Notes under the pieces: model-generated | Told to the model about the DNA's origin: nothing | What the model saw: the letters and a program-made list of their open reading frames with translations, nothing else | Database searches by the model: none | Assembly: GCA_021817825.1 (NCBI GenBank) | Contig: JAKAFS010000001.1 | Coordinates: forward strand, 1-64,000 | Direction: 5' to 3' | DNA length: 64,000 nt | From: Deltaproteobacteria bacterium | GTDB lineage: Bacteria > Desulfobacterota > Syntrophia > Syntrophales > UBA5619 | Shown: positions 25,039 to 33,785 of the stretch, piece by piece | How positions within the stretch are numbered: position 1 is the first letter of the stretch | Layout of the letters: the number at the start of each line of letters is the position of its first letter | Position numbers and translations under genes: made by a program

Positions 25039-28000
25039 TCAAAAGCCCAATCGTTTCTTTAATTCAAGCAATCTCTTATCTTTCATAAGAGCCGGTTTTA
25101 CTTCACCGATTCGTTTAAGCGCACTGCCTATACCATAAGGCCATTCAGATGTCGTATCGGGCAGAACTGCACATAGAAGCGCAAGTAATTTTTCAGGGTA
25201 CAAATCAATAATTTTGGAATCTTCGAGTTTGTAGATGAAAAAGCCATGCGTATCCACTTTAGATACCAGAGGCAGAATGACGTCTGCGAGGCTTCCGAAG
25301 GCCTCGGCATCTGTAAATGCGAGCTCACAAAGGGCAGTGGATATTCGGGGGCTTTTTGCCTTTTTGTGACGCGGCCATACATCTCTAAGGAATATCGGTA
25401 AATGTTTTCTATCTGCTTTCTTCCCCGTAAGAAAATTTTTGGCTTGCCATAAAGTATGAACCCGAAAATTATCGTCAGCATGGAGAAGAATTTCTCGCAT
25501 CTCCGCGTTGCTTACAAATCGTGTGCCTGTTTTGGGAAGCACGTGCCACCAATAGGCCAGAAGAATCGCCGATAGGGTATTTAGACGGCCCTGTTTCTCT
25601 ACTGTTTTGTCGTGGACAAGACGTAACAGGTAAGGTTTCAGCACTTCAAAAAGTTTGGAATGGACTTTGGGGTTCCAAAAGAACCCAGACCAGAATGCCT
25701 TTTGATCTTCAGCATCGGTAGCCAGCACTGAAAGCAGATTCGCCTTCGTCCAGCGGCGATCTCTCACAAAGAACCATCCAAGAGAGTACGTAAACATGGC
25801 AAGGGCATGCCGACGCAGGTTCCCCTCCAAATGAAGCAATTCTTCAACACGTTTCTTCCATGCGGACGGTAGGCTTTTCTTCTTGCCCAAATTTTTAATC
25901 GCCGGATCATTCATTAGCGCTTGTGCAAGTTTGCCGACTGGTGCATTCAAACTTTCTGTTGCATAATCAGGTTCGTTTTTCTGTCTTAGGACGCTTGATG
26001 GAGCACTTTCTGGCTTAGAATTTAGGATGGTAAGCAGTCGTTCCCATATCTGCCAAAATCGTTCTTGCTGAGAAGCCAAAAGGCCCTTGCTGGCATTTAA
26101 GAGCCATTCCGAGACCGATAAAATGAGGCCACAGATGATATCATCCGGCATTTTCAGAATATAACTTCCAATCTGTGCTGAAAAGTCTGGAGGATCATTT
26201 TTGCGTGCATCTGCGTATAGGAAAGTTCGCCATGCCCATTCGGGATAGTCATTACGAGCTGCATTGCTGACAAGCGCAGCAAGGGCAAGGTCTGCCTTTT
26301 CAGCCGACAAGCCCGCGAAGGGATCATTCTCCGTTAATCTGTCGAAATCCGTGCCACTGAGTTTCTTCGCTTTTTGAAGAATCACTTCCGGGGGCTCGGC
26401 AATGAGAGCAGAGTATTCTGTTTTCCTCTCAATGGATCCTCCGCGTCCTTCCAGGGAGTGGGCAGCCTTCGCAGCATATTCCGACTTCCACTCACGTGCT
26501 TTCTTGCGGAGTTCTTCGGTCTTCTTCTGTAGATCAAAACTGAACCGGCACCCATGTTCTGCCAGCCAATGAGCAAAATTCAATATTGTCGAAGCCCGTC
26601 TATCAATATACTGTCTTTTCTCTTCCGATTCCCAAGGTGGTGGTCCTTGTAACAGTCGACGTTCGAGACGCGCTCTAGTTGCCCTTGGAAAGTCGTTCCA
26701 TCGATTTTCCAGTGCGAGTAGCAAGTCACGCTGATGGCGATGTTCCCAAAACGACCGGATACCGAGCTGTAAGAGCAATTCGCCTGCTTCTTTACCACCG
26801 AAGAGGCTCGGGTCGCCGACGATCCAGATCCTTAAAAGATCAAAAACAGTCTCATCATCCCGCCAGGCCAAGCTTTCCCGCTTCGCTACTTGCGGATCTT
26901 TTTCAACGAGTCTTTTGAAGAGGTTGGCGTAATAGAGAAGAATGCATGATAAGCCGTAGGTTCTTTCATATGAATCGCCCTTGGCACTTTTATCCGGCTC
27001 AATAGGTGAATATTGACGCAACCCAAATCCACCGATTACTTTCTCCAGATAGACCGCATGTTCTAAGTTGTTTCTGAATTCTCGGACAGCAGATAAGAGA
27101 AAGTCATCTGGAATTGCTACATCACCATAAGGCGAGGGGTATTTCACGTCCACACTGACCATTTCGTTGAATTGAATCTCTTGTTTCGCAACAGGCGGTT
27201 TGGGGCCGCTCCAGCGAGGCCTATCATCAATGCTAAGATAGGGCCTTCTGATGGCAGCAAACTCCCTGATTGCGTCAATTGTCCAGCCATTCCGATCGAC
27301 GGAGGTTTTTAAATTATGCCAATCCAGGTCAGCATCCCGCTGACGGTCCCTCCATACAGCGAAAATAATTTGCCACGCCTTATAAACCTCAGGAAGGCAG
27401 GTATCTTTATCCAATTTCACTAACTGAGAATGGATCAGATCTTGAAGCGAATGGTGTACGCCTTTTTGCCCGGCAGCCCACCAGGCGGCAGCTGGTTGAT
27501 GACAGACTTTGCTGACCCAAACGCTCAAGAATTCCAAGCGCGGAGATAAGCGGGGCACATTAATCGCCCAATGTCCCCGCAGTGCTGCATAACGATCATC
27601 TTGTAGGTTCTTGATATCTGACGCATTGAGTGCAAAAGCATCCCATTCCCCGAAGGGCAAATCCCTTTTCGCAAAGTGGTCCTGCGGATCAAGTCTCGGC
27701 GGTGGTGTATCATTATCCAATCCATATGCGTCATAAAATGGATCAAATGGCTGCTTATCCTCGGAATAAATATTGATACTGCCTGGAGTCATGTAACGGA
27801 TGACCGGATCAAAAACGCACAGCCATTCGGCTGGAGGGGAAACCTCCGAATTGGCGAACCTTCTGGCACCTTCATTAGTGGAAACAATATGCGCGACCTG
27901 ACCTCTTTCGTGGGGTGAGAGGGCCTCAGGTCCATTCCTTGTCAGGGTAATGATTTTTTCGAACCAGGCATTCGGGTCTTTTGCTCTTTCTGCCCATCCT

Positions 28001-28857
28001 GCGAACGTATCCCAAAGAGCCTTATGGTTGTCTTCTTCATCATATGCGATGGGACATACACCTTTATGCCTCCACTTGGCCTCTGCATCTCCTGCATTGC
28101 CAGCCTGAAAGGCATATGCACCTACCAAAGATTTTTTGTAGCTGTTCAGCGCCTCCAGTAGGTAATAAACAGGAGGGTCATCCGCCGCATATCCTACAAA
28201 GACGACAATATATTGATCTATGATGGATCGGATAAAAGAAGTTGCCCATCCCTCAGCGAGGTAAGCACGTCCAAAACCCGCACTGGAGAGAACAAAGCCG
28301 TCACCTTCAGCACGATTATATTCACTATTCACGCGGCCATGCAGGTGAATTATTCCCTCGAAATCGTCATCGCGCAGGGGGTCCGGTAAGCGAGGAGGGC
28401 GGCAACATGGCAAGGATGAATCGCAGGCTTCGAAAAGGAGATCAAAGTTTGTCGTGATCAGTCGGGTCCGTCCGTCTGGCAGCTTTGCCAAATCCAGCAT
28501 GATCCGGTGGGCGAAAAGGACGGGATTCTCAGTCGGCTTAAGAGCCTTTGCAGATTCTTGTTCGATCTCTTGTGTTGAAAAGTCTCTTTCCAGAAGTCCA
28601 AATATTCTGTCGTATGGAATAACGCTAGTAACTCCCGTAATCTTATCAAGTCTCTCTGCTTCTTCAAGAAGTCTTCGTGCTGGATCTTCAGATGTAGCTC
28701 CCAGTCTCTCAATAACATTCCGCGCCAATTGAGAAAAATTGGGTAGATTGGCTCGTGCTTGAGATACTCCGGCCCCGCAAATAAAGACGACTCTCCCCTC
28801 ATCTCGTGCGACAAGAAGATCATCAGGGATTGATGGTCCATTGGCTACAAATCTCAT
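25039..28857 (-). CDS. Giant SIR2-domain protein, probable NAD-dependent phage-defence effector
   Basis: This 1272-residue protein has an N-terminal SIR2-like domain: FICGAGVSQA (GAGVS at 28-32), ITTNFDLLFE (135-143), IIHLHGRVN with the likely catalytic His in HLHG (171-174), and VFVGYAADDPPVYYLLEAL. The remaining 950 residues are helical, with no Walker A motif, so it is not an Avs-type STAND ATPase. The plan resembles defence sirtuins (DSR class) that destroy NAD on infection. The gene is visibly AT-rich with its own strong promoter (28902-28930), suggesting horizontal transfer. It lacks a clear Shine-Dalgarno site. The C-terminal part matched no family I can name. Confidence 0.8.
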   Translation of the reverse strand: MRFVANGPSIPDDLLVARDEGRVVFICGAGVSQARANLPNFSQLARNVIERLGATSEDPARRLLEEAERLDKITGVTSVIPYDRIFGLLERDFSTQEIEQESAKALKPTENPVLFAHRIMLDLAKLPDGRTRLITTNFDLLFEACDSSLPCCRPPRLPDPLRDDDFEGIIHLHGRVNSEYNRAEGDGFVLSSAGFGRAYLAEGWATSFIRSIIDQYIVVFVGYAADDPPVYYLLEALNSYKKSLVGAYAFQAGNAGDAEAKWRHKGVCPIAYDEEDNHKALWDTFAGWAERAKDPNAWFEKIITLTRNGPEALSPHERGQVAHIVSTNEGARRFANSEVSPPAEWLCVFDPVIRYMTPGSINIYSEDKQPFDPFYDAYGLDNDTPPPRLDPQDHFAKRDLPFGEWDAFALNASDIKNLQDDRYAALRGHWAINVPRLSPRLEFLSVWVSKVCHQPAAAWWAAGQKGVHHSLQDLIHSQLVKLDKDTCLPEVYKAWQIIFAVWRDRQRDADLDWHNLKTSVDRNGWTIDAIREFAAIRRPYLSIDDRPRWSGPKPPVAKQEIQFNEMVSVDVKYPSPYGDVAIPDDFLLSAVREFRNNLEHAVYLEKVIGGFGLRQYSPIEPDKSAKGDSYERTYGLSCILLYYANLFKRLVEKDPQVAKRESLAWRDDETVFDLLRIWIVGDPSLFGGKEAGELLLQLGIRSFWEHRHQRDLLLALENRWNDFPRATRARLERRLLQGPPPWESEEKRQYIDRRASTILNFAHWLAEHGCRFSFDLQKKTEELRKKAREWKSEYAAKAAHSLEGRGGSIERKTEYSALIAEPPEVILQKAKKLSGTDFDRLTENDPFAGLSAEKADLALAALVSNAARNDYPEWAWRTFLYADARKNDPPDFSAQIGSYILKMPDDIICGLILSVSEWLLNASKGLLASQQERFWQIWERLLTILNSKPESAPSSVLRQKNEPDYATESLNAPVGKLAQALMNDPAIKNLGKKKSLPSAWKKRVEELLHLEGNLRRHALAMFTYSLGWFFVRDRRWTKANLLSVLATDAEDQKAFWSGFFWNPKVHSKLFEVLKPYLLRLVHDKTVEKQGRLNTLSAILLAYWWHVLPKTGTRFVSNAEMREILLHADDNFRVHTLWQAKNFLTGKKADRKHLPIFLRDVWPRHKKAKSPRISTALCELAFTDAEAFGSLADVILPLVSKVDTHGFFIYKLEDSKIIDLYPEKLLALLCAVLPDTTSEWPYGIGSALKRIGEVKPALMKDKRLLELKKRLGF

Positions 28858-28930: not shown

Positions 28931-29057
28931 TGAAAATTGATTTAAAATATGGTGTTGTAACTTGCCAAGGGTGTAGTGGTTTCACTGATCTTCATCGCTC
29001 TGAGATGCACCCTTTCAACATTCTATCGTCATAGCGCCTGATTGCAGTCCTCGTTAA

Positions 29058-29257
29058 GGGCGTTTCCGGCCGACCGCCACCTACCGGAAGTGCCCTCGTT
29101 CAAGAAATATCGCCGCGGCGATACGACTTAACTATATGATACAATTAACGCTCTTCCGATGGCCTTGATCATTTCAGTGTCCCCTTTTGCCGCTGATTCT
29201 AGCCACTTCAGACCGGCTTTTTCTTGTTCTTCACTGCCCGGGTGATGGCCGGATTCA
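29058..29257. repeat. R1: 200-bp repeat (hairpin + 16-bp palindrome + ParB-like gene tail)
   Basis: R1 contains an imperfect hairpin (29058-29069 with 29084-29095), a perfect palindrome TATCGCCGCGGCGATA (29108-29123) and the last 15 codons of the ParB-like gene (minus strand, PAITRAVKNKKKPV then stop, about 29211-29255). The second copy R2 (30445-30700) has the same order and nearly the same spacing: 50 versus 51 bp hairpin-to-palindrome, and 155 versus 156 bp hairpin-to-tail. Confidence 0.85.
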
Positions 29258-29282
29258 GTTGGTGGCAATTTGTCACCAACTG
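29256..29282. repeat. 9-bp inverted repeat at the break point of the helicase stub
   Basis: CAGTTGGTG-N9-CACCAACTG is a perfect inverted repeat exactly where the ParB-like tail of R1 meets the truncated helicase frame. It may mark a recombination or insertion point, or act as a terminator-like hairpin. Confidence 0.6.
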
Positions 29283-29374
29283 ATTTCCATGATGCGGTCG
29301 AGGATTTCCAGGGAATGGCGCTGCGGCACCCGCAACCTCAGCCGCTCGGCGATGGCATTAACGTGTCGGTTCAT
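29273..29374 (-). pseudogene. Stub of a DEAD/DEAH helicase-type restriction protein (33 codons left)
   Basis: From ATG 29374, which overlaps the end of the DUF1016 gene, the frame reads MNRHVNAIAERLRLRVPQRH then SLEILDRIMEISW and stops. This closely resembles, from memory, the N-terminus of large type III-like DEAD-box restriction/helicase proteins (BPTD_3080 type), which are over 800 residues. Everything after residue 30 is gone, and the sequence passes into the inverted repeat and R1. The gene was probably the original neighbour of the nuclease gene and lost its body by recombination. Confidence 0.55.
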
Positions 29375-30431
29375 GATCGCCTTTCGCTTCAACGTGGTTT
29401 TGAAATCGTTCCCGGGCATGTTCAATGGCTTTGTGAAGTTCTTGCTCCAACGCCTTCCGGGGCGGAAGTTCCGTCAGATACTCGGCTACGCGGATGCCGC
29501 TCGTCTCCAATTCCATCAGTTCTATGGTTTCCCGATTTTTGCCGGCGCACAGGATCAACCCGATGGGCGCATTTTCGCCATCCTGACGTTCATAGCGATC
29601 CAGCCAGCGCAGATATAGCTCCATCTGGCCTTTGTCCGCCGGTTTGAAATCTCCTAGCTTCAGTTCGATGGCCAAAAGTCGTTTCAGCTTGCGGTTGAAA
29701 AAAAGAAGATCGATATAGTAGTCGTCGCTGTCGATTTGAATCCTCTTTTGTCGAGCAATGAATGAGAACCCGGCCCCCATCTCCAGAAGAAATTGTTCCA
29801 GTTCCCGCAAGATGGCGTCTTCCAGATCCTTTTCCAGATAATGGTCCCGCAGCCCCAGGAAATCTAGAAAATACGGATCTTTAAAGACCAGATCCGGCGC
29901 CAGCCTGTCTTCATCACGCAAGACATCAATTTCGTAACGAATGACCTCATCAGGCTTCCTGGAAATGGCCGTACGCTCATAGAGCATAGAGTCGATTTTC
30001 TGTCTGAGGGTGCGGACGCTCCATCGTTCAATGCGGCACATTTCTGCATAGAAATCACGTTGGAGGGGCTTTTCAAGGGGTAGAAGTTCGCGGAAATGCG
30101 ACCAGCTCAATTGTTGCGACAATGTGGCAACAATTGCTTCATCGGAAAACGCCTCTGCAAATTTCACCATGCGCGTCAAAGCGGAATAGCTAAAGCCATT
30201 TCCATATTCACGGGACAATGCTTGCGACGTCGTGGCAAGAATCTGTTTCCCATATTCTCCCCGTTCGCCTTGAAGAATCTCCTGATGTATCCGGCGGCCG
30301 ATTCGCCAATAGAGCATTGTCAGACCGGAGTTCACCGCTGCCGCCACAGTGGCGCGGGCCTGCTCAATTAATCGACGGATATCGGAAACCAAAGTATCGT
30401 CAGTGCTACAGAGGCCTTTTTCGCTCGTCAT
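29358..30431 (-). CDS. PDDEXK nuclease-domain protein, YhcG / DUF1016 family
   Basis: This 357-residue protein has the N-terminal DUF1016 domain (ARATVAAAVNSGLTMLYWRI, GKQILATTSQALSREYGNGF, SWSHFRELLPLE) and a C-terminal PD-(D/E)xK nuclease domain. Catalytic-type residues appear in DDYYIDLLFFNRKLKRLLAI and the following ELKLGDF. Start ATG 30431 has GGGAGG five bases upstream. The family is linked to DNA-processing and defence islands. It lies just downstream of repeat R2, which carries its promoter and a leader hairpin. Its end overlaps the helicase stub. Confidence 0.9.
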   Translation of the reverse strand: MTSEKGLCSTDDTLVSDIRRLIEQARATVAAAVNSGLTMLYWRIGRRIHQEILQGERGEYGKQILATTSQALSREYGNGFSYSALTRMVKFAEAFSDEAIVATLSQQLSWSHFRELLPLEKPLQRDFYAEMCRIERWSVRTLRQKIDSMLYERTAISRKPDEVIRYEIDVLRDEDRLAPDLVFKDPYFLDFLGLRDHYLEKDLEDAILRELEQFLLEMGAGFSFIARQKRIQIDSDDYYIDLLFFNRKLKRLLAIELKLGDFKPADKGQMELYLRWLDRYERQDGENAPIGLILCAGKNRETIELMELETSGIRVAEYLTELPPRKALEQELHKAIEHARERFQNHVEAKGDHEPTR

Positions 30432-30444
30432 GGCCACCTCCCAA

Positions 30445-30700
30445 GGGCGTTTCCGGCTGCCCGCTCACCTGCCGGAAACGCCCTCGTCCAAGAAATATCG
30501 CCGCGGCGATACGACTTAAAAGTATGATTATATTAATGTTTTTACTATGGACTCAATCATTTTAGCTTCGCCTTCTTCCGCTGATTCTGTGAGATCAAAC
30601 CACCTTTTTCTTGTTCTTCACTGCCGGATGATGGCCGGGTCCCGGATCTCCTTCAGGTCGTTCATAGCGTCGATGAGGAGAGTCCGGTCTTTGAACTTTG
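30445..30700. repeat. R2: second copy of the hairpin/palindrome/ParB-tail repeat
   Basis: R2 has a perfect 12-bp hairpin (30445-30456 with 30472-30483), the same 16-bp palindrome (30496-30511) and a diverged ParB-like tail (minus strand, KFKDRTLLIDAMNDLKEIRD, then PAIIRQ and a stop). The palindrome and flanks are identical to R1 while the tail has drifted, so the two copies are not of one recent origin throughout. Confidence 0.85.
30527..30556 (-). promoter_or_regulatory. Promoter of the DUF1016 nuclease gene
   Basis: On the minus strand TTGAGT (-35), an 18-base spacer and a perfect TATAAT (-10) lie inside R2. The transcript would begin with the palindrome and the hairpin before the start codon, giving a structured leader of about 90 bases. 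Confidence 0.65.
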
Positions 30701-30704
30701 CTGC

Positions 30705-30953
30705 CTACTGTTTTGCTTCTGTGCATGTAACATTCCTAAATGCATCATCCCCACCACAGTAGTATGTCTTTCCCTGGCATTGAGCTGTGTAGGTTCCGGT
30801 CTTCAGTCCGACCTTTACGTCGGTGATTGTTACAGCTGCGGGTGGACATCCGGTTAGTGATGATGTGCGCCCTTGTAACTCTGACATAGCTGGCGCGCAT
30901 GCAAACATCAGCGCAGACATGACCATCAGTGCTATGAATACTTTTGCTTTCAT
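30705..30953 (-). CDS. Small exported cysteine-rich protein, probable lipoprotein (82 aa)
   Basis: ATG 30953 follows GGAGG. The protein has a signal peptide with a lipobox-like LMFAC (residues 15-19), then a short domain with four more cysteines (TGCPPAAVTITD, YTAQCQGKTYYC and VTCTEAKQ). Its size and Cys pattern suggest a small disulfide-bonded envelope protein. No family is recognised. It lies between the full ParB-like gene and its tail copy in R2, as if inserted there. Confidence 0.7.
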   Translation of the reverse strand: MKAKVFIALMVMSALMFACAPAMSELQGRTSSLTGCPPAAVTITDVKVGLKTGTYTAQCQGKTYYCGGDDAFRNVTCTEAKQ

Positions 30954-31036: not shown

Positions 31037-31852
31037 TTATACCGGCTTTTTCTTGTTCTTCACCGCCCGAGTGATGGCCGGATCCAGAATCTCCTTAAAG
31101 GCGTTCATGGCATCGATGAGGAGGGTCCGGTCCTCGGCGGTAAAGTCGGGAAACTCCAGATCGTCGATCTTTTCGGCCATCATGGCGATGCTGTTGGCGA
31201 TGGCCTCGGCTTTGGTGCGCTTCCGCATGGGCACAGCTGCCTGGCCCTCTTTGGCGGCGGCCTTGTCCCGCTGTGCCTTGTATTTGTTGAAGGCAGTCAC
31301 CATGCTCCGTTCCTGCTTCTTCCGGGCGATTTCGATCAGGGTCTTTTTGGGAACAGTCGGGTTCTGCCGGCATTCGTCCCGGATCTCCTTGGGAGGCTTG
31401 TTAAGCGAAAGGGCCTCTGAGATCCTGGGTTGCTATTTGCCGATCACGGTGGCCAGTTGCTCCTGCTGATAGGCGTGGTCCTCCATGAGCTTTTGGAGGG
31501 CCTCGGCCTCCTCGACGGGGGTGAGGTCCTGGCGGAGCAGATTCTCCACCAGGGCGATCTCGGCGCTGTTGGCGGTATTGACGAAGACCGCCGGGATGGC
31601 GGGCAGGCCGGCTTTCCTCGCCGCGGCGCAGCGCCGTTCGCCGGCCACGGTGTAGACCAGCCCCGTAGCCCCGTCGAGACGGCAGACCACAGGCTGGATC
31701 ACCCCCATTTGCGCCACCGAAGCGGTCAGCTCCTCCAGGGCGGCGGGGTCCATGTATTTCCGCGGTTGGTTGGGATCGGACTGAATTTCGGCCAGGGCCA
31801 CCTGATAAAGTTGTCCGGGTTGATAGTTTGTCGCAGGTTGAACGGTCACCAT
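31037..31852 (-). pseudogene. ParB/Spo0J-family gene interrupted by an in-frame amber codon
   Basis: From ATG 31852 (AAGGAGG upstream) the frame reads a ParB N-terminal nuclease/partition domain: YQVALAEIQSDPNQPRKY, VAQMGVIQPVVCRL, VYTVAGERRCAAARKAGLPA, ENLLRQDLTPVEEAEAL. TAG falls at codon 140 (31433-31435) within the helix-turn-helix region. The same frame then continues for 131 codons as normal ParB-like sequence (ISEALSLNKPPKEIRDEC) to TAA at 31037. A single base change in that codon would restore a 271-residue protein. The N-terminal fragment alone could still be made. The gene is a plasmid/phage-type ParB-like protein rather than the chromosomal one. Confidence 0.85.
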
Positions 31853-31876
31853 TGCAAATCCTCCTTTTCTCGTCAA

Positions 31877-32114
31877 AAAAACAGGTTTGTCGAGAACAGG
31901 GGCCGTCGGTGGGAAGCGGATGCGTCCACGGCGCGGGAGGTTCCATCAATGGCGACGACGGCCCCGAGCCAAAGCCGGGGGACGAACGGCAAAACAGCTG
32001 GAACGATGGATCGGTGGAACGTCAGAACGGTGGATCGGCAAATGGAGAGGAACAGCGGAAAGCGTCAGCGGTGGTGATGGCTCAAGATACTGCCAAGGCC
32101 GGTGAAAATCAAGA
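31877..32114. other. Non-coding gap upstream of the ParB-like gene with the left direct repeat
   Basis: No gene is supported here. The right part (from 31991) is the left copy of the direct repeat that flanks the hydrolase gene. Confidence 0.6.
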
Positions 32115-32121
32115 AAAAGAT
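31991..32121. repeat. Left direct repeat flanking the Tat hydrolase gene
   Basis: The segment from AAAACAGCTGGAACGATGGA onward, including AGCGGAAAGCGTCAGCGGTG and the GCCAAGGCCGG-to-AAGAAAAA end, recurs at 33637-33785. The inner 9-base units are degenerate in this copy. Confidence 0.85.
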
Positions 32122-32200: not shown

Positions 32201-33598
32201 TTAGGCGAACACCTCGTGCAGCCAATTGTCGATGTAATTGTTCTCCAGGGTCACCACATTGGGGAAACCAGGCGTCGTACCGCCGCCGTGGGTCATGCCT
32301 TCGATGAAGATCATGTCCTTCTTCTCGGCGACCGAGTCGTTGTAAATCCATTCGGCAACCTCGAACTCAAAGCCGGCGGTGCGGCCGACCGCCAAGGTCG
32401 GACAGTGGATATACCGGCTGTTGCCGTTGGGGCTGCTGAAGTTGTCTTCCCAGCGAACGCCGAAACACTCGGTCTCGTTGTAGCCGAACCGGTGTTCATC
32501 GACGTGCATGCCGAGGTACAGGAATTCACTGACCTTGGTGTTGTAGCACTTGCTCATGTCCTCAAAGTTGCCGGGGTCCTTGTCGGCATTACGAAGGCTG
32601 GGAACGATTTGGGTGGTAATGGTGCCGTCATTGTGCAGCAGCTTGCAGGCGCCCTTGGTGCGGCTGTAGAAGCGGATGTCGTGGGCATACAACTGGTAAG
32701 CGTTGACGTTGCCGAACCCCATGACCACGCAGAAGGGCTCGTCGTCGGAGAACATGCCTTTGCCGGCCTTGATGCGATGCATGCGCTCCCGGGCCTTGTC
32801 GAGCAGGCGGTTGTAGCGCTCTGCCTGGGCCCTCCAGATCTCCCGGCAGAATCGGTCGGTGTAGCTGGCGACGCCGTTGCCCAGATAGCCGTTCTCGGCG
32901 GTCAGCGGATCCAGTCTTTTCGTGCGCTTCATGACGCTGTCGTCGTCCACGAGGTTGGTGGCCAGAGAGGCCAGCACGTTGACCATGAAGCCGTGGTTGG
33001 GGTCGCAGTAGATGATGCCGTCCGCAGGCGTCAGGGTCATGTTGGGGATCGGGAGGAACATATGGGGGCCCTGGAAGGTGGCGGGACCGTTCTCGGCGAT
33101 CCTCTGGTAGGCGCTTTGCAGGTTGCAGCCCCGGCTGTTTCCCCAAAGGACGATCTTCTCGACGCCGCTGATATTCGCCTTGATCCATTTGATGCAGTTG
33201 CTCAGATACTGCACCTGGTCGATGAAGTAACCATTCGTGGGGGCGCAGTTGGCGGAACGGTAGCCCAATGCGGCGAACCGTTTGATGCCGGCGTTGGGCA
33301 GGATGTCGGTGGATCGGGAACTGCCGTACATATTCAGGATGCAGATCCGGGATCGAAAAGCGTCCGCCGCGCCCGGATCATAGACAATAATGTTGGCGCC
33401 GCTGACGCTGCCGAGTTTTTCCGCGATGGGTGGTCCGGCGGCCCGGGCAGTGCTGCCGAAGCCGCCCAGAACGGCGGCGGAAACGGCGGCGCCGGTCACC
33501 CCGCTGTACTTGAGAAAATCTCTGCGGTTTAAGCCTTTCGCGTGTTTTTTGCCTGTTTCCAGCGGCCGCTCCGAGAAAACCCTTTTGGTGGTGCGCAT
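32201..33598 (-). CDS. Tat-exported alpha/beta-hydrolase-like protein
   Basis: This 465-residue protein has a twin-arginine signal (NRRDFLK at 24-30, then a hydrophobic Ala/Gly run to about residue 54). The mature part has the nucleophile elbow GNSRG with Ser155, preceded by VEKIVLWGN, as in alpha/beta hydrolases. FIEGMTHGGGTTPGF near the C-terminus is a candidate for the catalytic His. It should act in the periplasm as an esterase or related hydrolase; the substrate is unknown. GAGGAGGACG precedes the ATG. Two long direct repeats flank it, suggesting that it was inserted as a unit. Confidence 0.8.
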   Translation of the reverse strand: MRTTKRVFSERPLETGKKHAKGLNRRDFLKYSGVTGAAVSAAVLGGFGSTARAAGPPIAEKLGSVSGANIIVYDPGAADAFRSRICILNMYGSSRSTDILPNAGIKRFAALGYRSANCAPTNGYFIDQVQYLSNCIKWIKANISGVEKIVLWGNSRGCNLQSAYQRIAENGPATFQGPHMFLPIPNMTLTPADGIIYCDPNHGFMVNVLASLATNLVDDDSVMKRTKRLDPLTAENGYLGNGVASYTDRFCREIWRAQAERYNRLLDKARERMHRIKAGKGMFSDDEPFCVVMGFGNVNAYQLYAHDIRFYSRTKGACKLLHNDGTITTQIVPSLRNADKDPGNFEDMSKCYNTKVSEFLYLGMHVDEHRFGYNETECFGVRWEDNFSSPNGNSRYIHCPTLAVGRTAGFEFEVAEWIYNDSVAEKKDMIFIEGMTHGGGTTPGFPNVVTLENNYIDNWLHEVFA

Positions 33599-33636: not shown

Positions 33637-33785
33637 AAAACAGCTGGAACGATGGAACGGGTGAATCGGTAGAACGGTGGAACGGTGGAACGGTGGAACG
33701 GTGGAACGGGAAGAATAGCGGAAAGCGTCAGCGGTGGTGATGGTGGAAGATACCGCCAAGGCCGGGGAAGATCAAGAAAAAAGAT
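33637..33785. repeat. Right direct repeat with tandem 9-mers (GGAACGGTG)
   Basis: This copy matches the left repeat at 31991-32121 and adds four to five tandem copies of GGAACGGTG (about 33672-33710). Its right end runs into the last codons of coaE, whose C-terminal SPHLFS comes from it. Confidence 0.85.

Follow-up and report, generated by a model that had tools for sequence, protein, structure and literature searches.

Two copies of a conserved module in the window

The window analysed here is the whole stretch of 64,000 nucleotides from position 1 of contig JAKAFS010000001.1 of a Deltaproteobacteria bacterium (Syntrophales). It carries on its minus strand an interrupted orphan parB-like gene, two accessory genes and two copies, R1 and R2, of a module in which the remnant of a parB 3' end is followed by a non-coding conserved stretch with an AT-rich arm, a palindrome, a hairpin and an accessory gene, in this order. 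The features are as follows.

25039–28857, minus strand: SIR2 protein gene behind R1 (SIR2_2 in Pfam; PADLOC's model of the Dsr1 defence protein matches the N-terminal part at 4.4e-94)
29056–29097, minus strand: hairpin of R1, the weaker copy (repeat search; folding)
29108–29123, no strand: palindrome of R1, TATCGCCGCGGCGATA, a predicted ParB-type site (exact match; model match 29102–29168, 66.1 bits)
29124–29168, minus strand: AT-rich arm of R1, at fixed spacing before the palindrome (alignments; model match)
29207–29258, minus strand: parB 3'-end remnant before R1 (repeat family D2; tblastn to the ParB C-terminus)
29358–30437, minus strand: YhcG/DUF1016 PDDEXK nuclease gene behind R2 (Pfam)
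30443–30484, minus strand: hairpin of R2 with perfect 14-bp arms (inverted repeat I9; folding)
30496–30511, no strand: palindrome of R2, 16 bp, a predicted ParB-type site (exact match; model match 30490–30556, 57.2 bits)
30512–30556, minus strand: AT-rich arm of R2 (alignment; model match)
30594–30689, minus strand: parB 3'-end remnant before R2 (repeat families D2 and D3; tblastn)
30705–30953, minus strand: ORF of 82 aa that lies between parB and R2 and starts like a lipoprotein (ORF list; no Pfam family)
31037–31876, minus strand: orphan parB-like gene with an in-frame TAG at 31433–31435 (ORF list; ParB_N at 2.7e-20 and HTH_ParB)

Downstream of the SIR2 gene, the segment 24430–24726 resembles by eye a decayed helix-turn-helix antitoxin gene. 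A 65-bp repeat of 91% identity (32054–32118 and 33717–33781) flanks a TAT-signal gene at 32201–33598 and adjoins the parB leader.

The window contains two exact occurrences of the 16-bp palindrome and no others. In shuffles, matches with 2 mismatches or fewer averaged 0.01, and no shuffle yielded two. Searching with a longer R1 query aligned the two modules at 81% identity (E 5e-46). A 123-nt repeat block (29078–29200 and 30466–30588; 80% identity) lies at an offset of 1388 and the block on the hairpin side (29056–29077 and 30443–30464) at an offset of 1387, so that spacing within the module is constant to 1 bp, in agreement with the shared order and spacing given in a preliminary description of this DNA. 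The placing of the module in front of accessory genes was likewise borne out, as R2 reads into the YhcG/DUF1016 gene and R1 towards the SIR2 gene. The module was found to reach beyond the AT-rich zone, with parB 3'-end remnants in both copies. Folding of the hairpin, previously called conserved, gave -35.0 kcal/mol (z -5.35) for R2, a strong structure, and -22.6 kcal/mol (z -1.73) for R1, a weaker one; the hairpin of the copy on contig C186 is weak as well. Searches of the window against Rfam and for tRNAs returned no matches.

A dispersed repeat with a changing palindrome

R1 and R2 belong to a dispersed repeat made up of an AT-rich arm of roughly 45 nt and the 16-bp palindrome. The exact palindrome has five copies in the genome of the window (G000), with variously decayed flanks, which supports the earlier proposal that the identical palindrome is under selection. 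More diverged copies were recovered from this genome by blastn with R1; in these the sequence of the palindrome changes while its symmetry is kept, and the arm is conserved at fixed spacing. An exact pattern that included part of the arm had no match in the contigs of the genome. A covariance model was then built from arm and site. At its rough E-values it matched 30 places in the genome of the window at E ≤0.0152 (36 rows at E ≤1, including some reverse-strand echoes) and 35 out of 149 relatives at E ≤0.01, with at least 34 sites each in G029, G068 and G095. The module is therefore widespread and no peculiarity of the window, a point on which the preliminary description had called for a search of this genome and its relatives.

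Preservation of the dyad through double changes was evaluated on an alignment of 16 module copies (A1), 15 from the genome of the window and one from G095. Such changes were counted in 21 cells, where shuffling gave 6.6 on average, and the signal vanished when the pairing was slid. Six of the copies (R1, R2, C57b, C42, C204 and the G095 copy) had been found by the exact palindrome and hence contribute nothing to the variation, while the ten with other palindromes had been found by the arm. This makes A1 fairer than a further alignment, A4, on which the pair count is biased because sites were partly picked for palindromicity. The arm may perhaps be a bend site, although an IHF-type match at it is strict in just 6 out of 42. 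The genome of the window carries 5.6% contamination and two copies of metK (L006 and G000:C157), the latter a possible sign of a co-binned organism; contig C57 may accordingly stem from a related organism.

The repeat is the 3' flank of orphan parB-like genes

The repeat turned out to flank, on the 3' side, an orphan ParB-like gene that occurs in multiple copies. A perfect 16-bp palindrome was found within 250 nt downstream of 27 out of 75 parB hits, as compared with 2 out of 69 upstream and an expectation of 0.55 from shuffles. The genome of the window has 9 parB hits, G104 has 12, G093 11 and G082 10, counts in which the canonical ParB may be included; most other genomes have a single weak hit that is canonical-ParB-like. 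Nearest among solved structures to the C57 copy are ParB and Noc, and ParB_N and HTH_ParB domains are present in the window gene and in the C57 copy. Pattern searches of 87 ParB hits returned the putative CTP-binding motifs in most of them (GERR-like in 81, ENxxR-like in 82) and the ParA-binding motif LGxGL in 3, all three being canonical ParBs. In the neighbouring ORFs, 61 on the downstream and 64 on the upstream side, the 25 commonest Pfam families do not include a ParA partner. The orphan family thus has the 16-bp palindrome of parS and NBS sites and lacks the two marks by which a canonical ParABS system was to be recognised here, LGxGL and a ParA partner in those neighbour families. The proteins of this family fit the term 'orphan' ParB as it is used in PMC12704722.

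The window's own parB gene is 82% identical to the C57 ParB at the protein level, with its one TAG located in the recognition helix (XQPRISEA), at the serine preceding residue 173. In-frame stops were also observed in parB relatives of G013, G093 and G104. At L297, a similar element lies downstream of a disrupted gene related to this parB.

The palindrome follows residue 173 of the recognition helix

An anchored site was assigned at 42 out of 74 parB loci; the other 32, which had no site under the rule and were excluded, include some with a site clear by eye and some from which it is absent. Among the 42, a single sequence was too short to enter the tree, leaving 41 loci. At these, base 2 of the half-site was G for 18 of the 20 proteins with Arg at position 173, A for all 13 with Gln, T for both with Lys and T for all 6 with other residues, one helix in the last group (L160) being misparsed. 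The two Arg exceptions are near-identical copies in which the register was probably set one base off by the rule. In a tree of the N-terminal domain, nine path-disjoint contrasts were available. The base changed in eight of them, the ninth being Val against Lys, which both go with T, and the expected base was present at all 18 tips of the contrasting pairs.

The pairing of Arg or Gln at position 173 with base 2 has been shown experimentally for ParB/parS and Noc/NBS (PMC7383237). The Gln of the present family aligns opposite that Arg in a solved ParB, and the window's parB has Gln at 173, in agreement with the TA at which the palindrome of R1 and R2 starts. Since the palindromes track the ParB recognition helix as the published code prescribes, the palindrome is very probably a loading site of the parS/NBS type, and each member of the family appears to have its own version of it. 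Among the roles suggested in the preliminary description, that of a protein-binding site is thus the one favoured by the sequences, and the likely protein is a member of the orphan ParB family whose genes precede the module. The appearance of the arm had also suggested a recombination site resembling dif or attC, an idea dropped after the ParB rule emerged.

The position of the element behind parB is also what one would see if it were the transcription terminator of that gene, copied along with it, and terminator-like matches do fall on both palindromes. Their number, 3 against 2.0 in shuffles, is close to that of random sequence though, many palindromes have no T-run after them, and a terminator would account neither for the fixed 16-bp register nor for covariation with a DNA-contacting residue. 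There is, in our judgement, scarcely any chance that termination is what the element is for.

Solo sites and their neighbourhoods

Coding sequence for the ParB C-terminus was detected in the preceding 400 nt of 7 out of 30 modules in the genome of the window; most sites are therefore solo. In this genome 15 of the 30 palindromes begin with CTTC and 6 with TATC, and CTTC sites lie behind its ParBs with Pro or Val at 173. The 24 sites fetched from G029 fall into three classes (9, 9 and 6), and two of these classes are identical to the sites behind G029's own ParBs. All 18 sites fetched from G068 share one palindrome save for a single base, with a pairwise identity of 99.3% in the palindrome vs 78% in the flank, which is a second case in favour of selection on the palindrome. 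For the G068 assembly, despite its at least 34 sites (L247–L264 among them), only a canonical ParB and no orphan ParB was found. This is the main result against a simple reading, and it leaves three options: the assembly does not include the orphan ParB, the genome has lost it, or the site has another reader.

A next gene was detectable for 41 of 48 solo sites and was read in the direction of the module at 18 of them, so no fixed orientation to genes was found among these sites. This bears on the suggestion that the module serves in general as a promoter-driven regulatory leader, transcribed across the palindrome and the hairpin and on into the accessory gene. Such a leader suits the orientation of R1 and R2, and in R2 a 10-of-12 promoter match (TTGAGT-18-TATAAT) is combined with the strong hairpin. 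The promoter zone that had been described is indeed AT-rich in both copies, but the sigma-70-like match is confined to R2, none being found in R1, and the 2 matches in the scanned region compare with 2.1 in shuffles. Taken with the 18 out of 41 solo sites and the weak hairpins of R1 and the C186 copy, this leaves the leader highly improbable, and the suggestion was abandoned as a general role.

The genes next to the modules vary widely. In the genome of the window, sites L265, L266, L007 and L005 adjoin genes for AbiEii, RhuM, YhcG, AbiV and a DUF4143-ATPase, and a link to defence genes there (YhcG, Dsr1-like, AbiV, AbiEii, RhuM) is suggestive; a pooled scan that added the neighbours of sites in G068 and G029 gave no strong defence-gene trend. 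Inverted pairs of modules 100–400 bp apart, with differing palindromes, were observed at L267, L272 and L281 in G029 and at L049 in the genome of the window (C186). At two loci tested, homology to genus relatives ends just past a core gene (coaE and metK), which marks the region as variable; comparison with genus relatives for an empty site yielded one boundary per locus only.

Several features suggest that the 3' end has been duplicated and has spread: the parB remnants before R1, R2 and C57b are of unequal length, the repeat is patchily distributed, with at least 34 copies in some genomes, and numerous sites in G029 and G068 lie close to the ends of contigs. These observations, together with the inverted pairs in G029 and in the genome of the window, would also be expected if the palindrome were the end of a mobile repeat, recognised by a mobilising enzyme, that spreads while keeping its palindrome end constant and varying at its 5' end. 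Such a reading is compatible with ParB binding. Against it, the palindromes vary in step with a ParB residue and no recombinase is present among the 25 commonest neighbour Pfam families. Mobilisation by a Y1 (RAYT) transposase was not supported: PF01797, found in 10 out of 16 chosen genomes, does not track the repeat, being absent from G082 with its 24 sites and present in G025 and G043, which have no sites. Neither the neighbour families nor the Y1 search thus identified a mobilising enzyme, and the recombination site named in the preliminary description received no direct support from them. We regard the mobile-repeat end as possible, though on balance unlikely.

Proposed explanation

Computation established the element, its place behind parB genes, the paired variation in its sequence and its agreement with the residue that sets ParB specificity. 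Based on these sequence comparisons we propose, with a probability of about 0.8, that R1 and R2 serve an orphan ParB-like protein, one without a ParA partner, as loading sites of the parS/NBS type. The helix-turn-helix of ParB would read the 16-bp palindrome in the cell. Judging from Noc, KorB and VirB, the protein would then probably act as a nucleotide-controlled clamp that spreads over nearby DNA. What the system does in the cell we infer: the outcome would be local chromosome organisation or gene control and not segregation. R1 and R2 probably derive from the 3' ends of parB copies, the rest of the gene having been lost and the palindrome retained while the remainder drifted. With the window's parB interrupted, R1 and R2 are either relics or dependent on a different ParB of this genome. 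More speculatively, and with odds we put low, orphan ParBs and their sites may form mobile pairs of ever-changing specificity, such that distinct clamp systems, each with its own scattered sites, coexist as selfish or island-associated chromatin in which mixed pairs of modules may mark boundaries.

Orphan ParBs are common, and their diversity is described as largely unexplored in a 2025 survey (PMC12704722). The present family supplies a predicted cognate DNA site for each protein, which is usually missing for orphan ParBs, and the dozens of sites per genome are material for finding a function. It also offers many natural protein-site pairs for the specificity code, including four residues at position 173 (Lys, Pro, Thr and Val) that no published rule known to us covers, and makes the model of specificity switching between ParB and Noc testable on natural variation. 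A literature search of limited scope found no earlier description of orphan ParB genes that are present in multiple copies and accompanied by a dispersed palindrome.

Comparison with known systems

KorB of RK2 and VirB of Shigella resemble the proposed system in being ParB-fold regulators that work from specific DNA sites (PMC11790492, PMC10770331). Unlike the present proteins, they are plasmid-borne regulators. No multicopy genes whose sites diverge in the present manner are known to us. The parS of P1, too, immediately follows parB and has an IHF bend site, but P1 has a ParA and a different box layout. REP/RAYT repeats are likewise dispersed, palindromic and intergenic, some of them in inverted pairs; the present repeat differs in having no Y1 transposase association.

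Canonical ParB-parS has in common with the orphan family the ParB_N and HTH domains, the 16-bp palindrome and, in many orphan members, Arg at 173 with TG in the site. The orphans depart from it in the absence of LGxGL and of ParA from the top Pfam families of neighbours, in their many gene copies and in their diverging sites. Noc/NBS of Bacillus shares a ParB fold without ParA and sites that are 16-bp palindromes dispersed along the chromosome (PMC4331003, PMC8429893), and in Noc, too, Gln at 173 goes with TA at the start of the site (PMC7383237). Unlike Noc, the orphan family has several ParBs with different sites in one genome, and its site sits in a conserved arm behind the gene.
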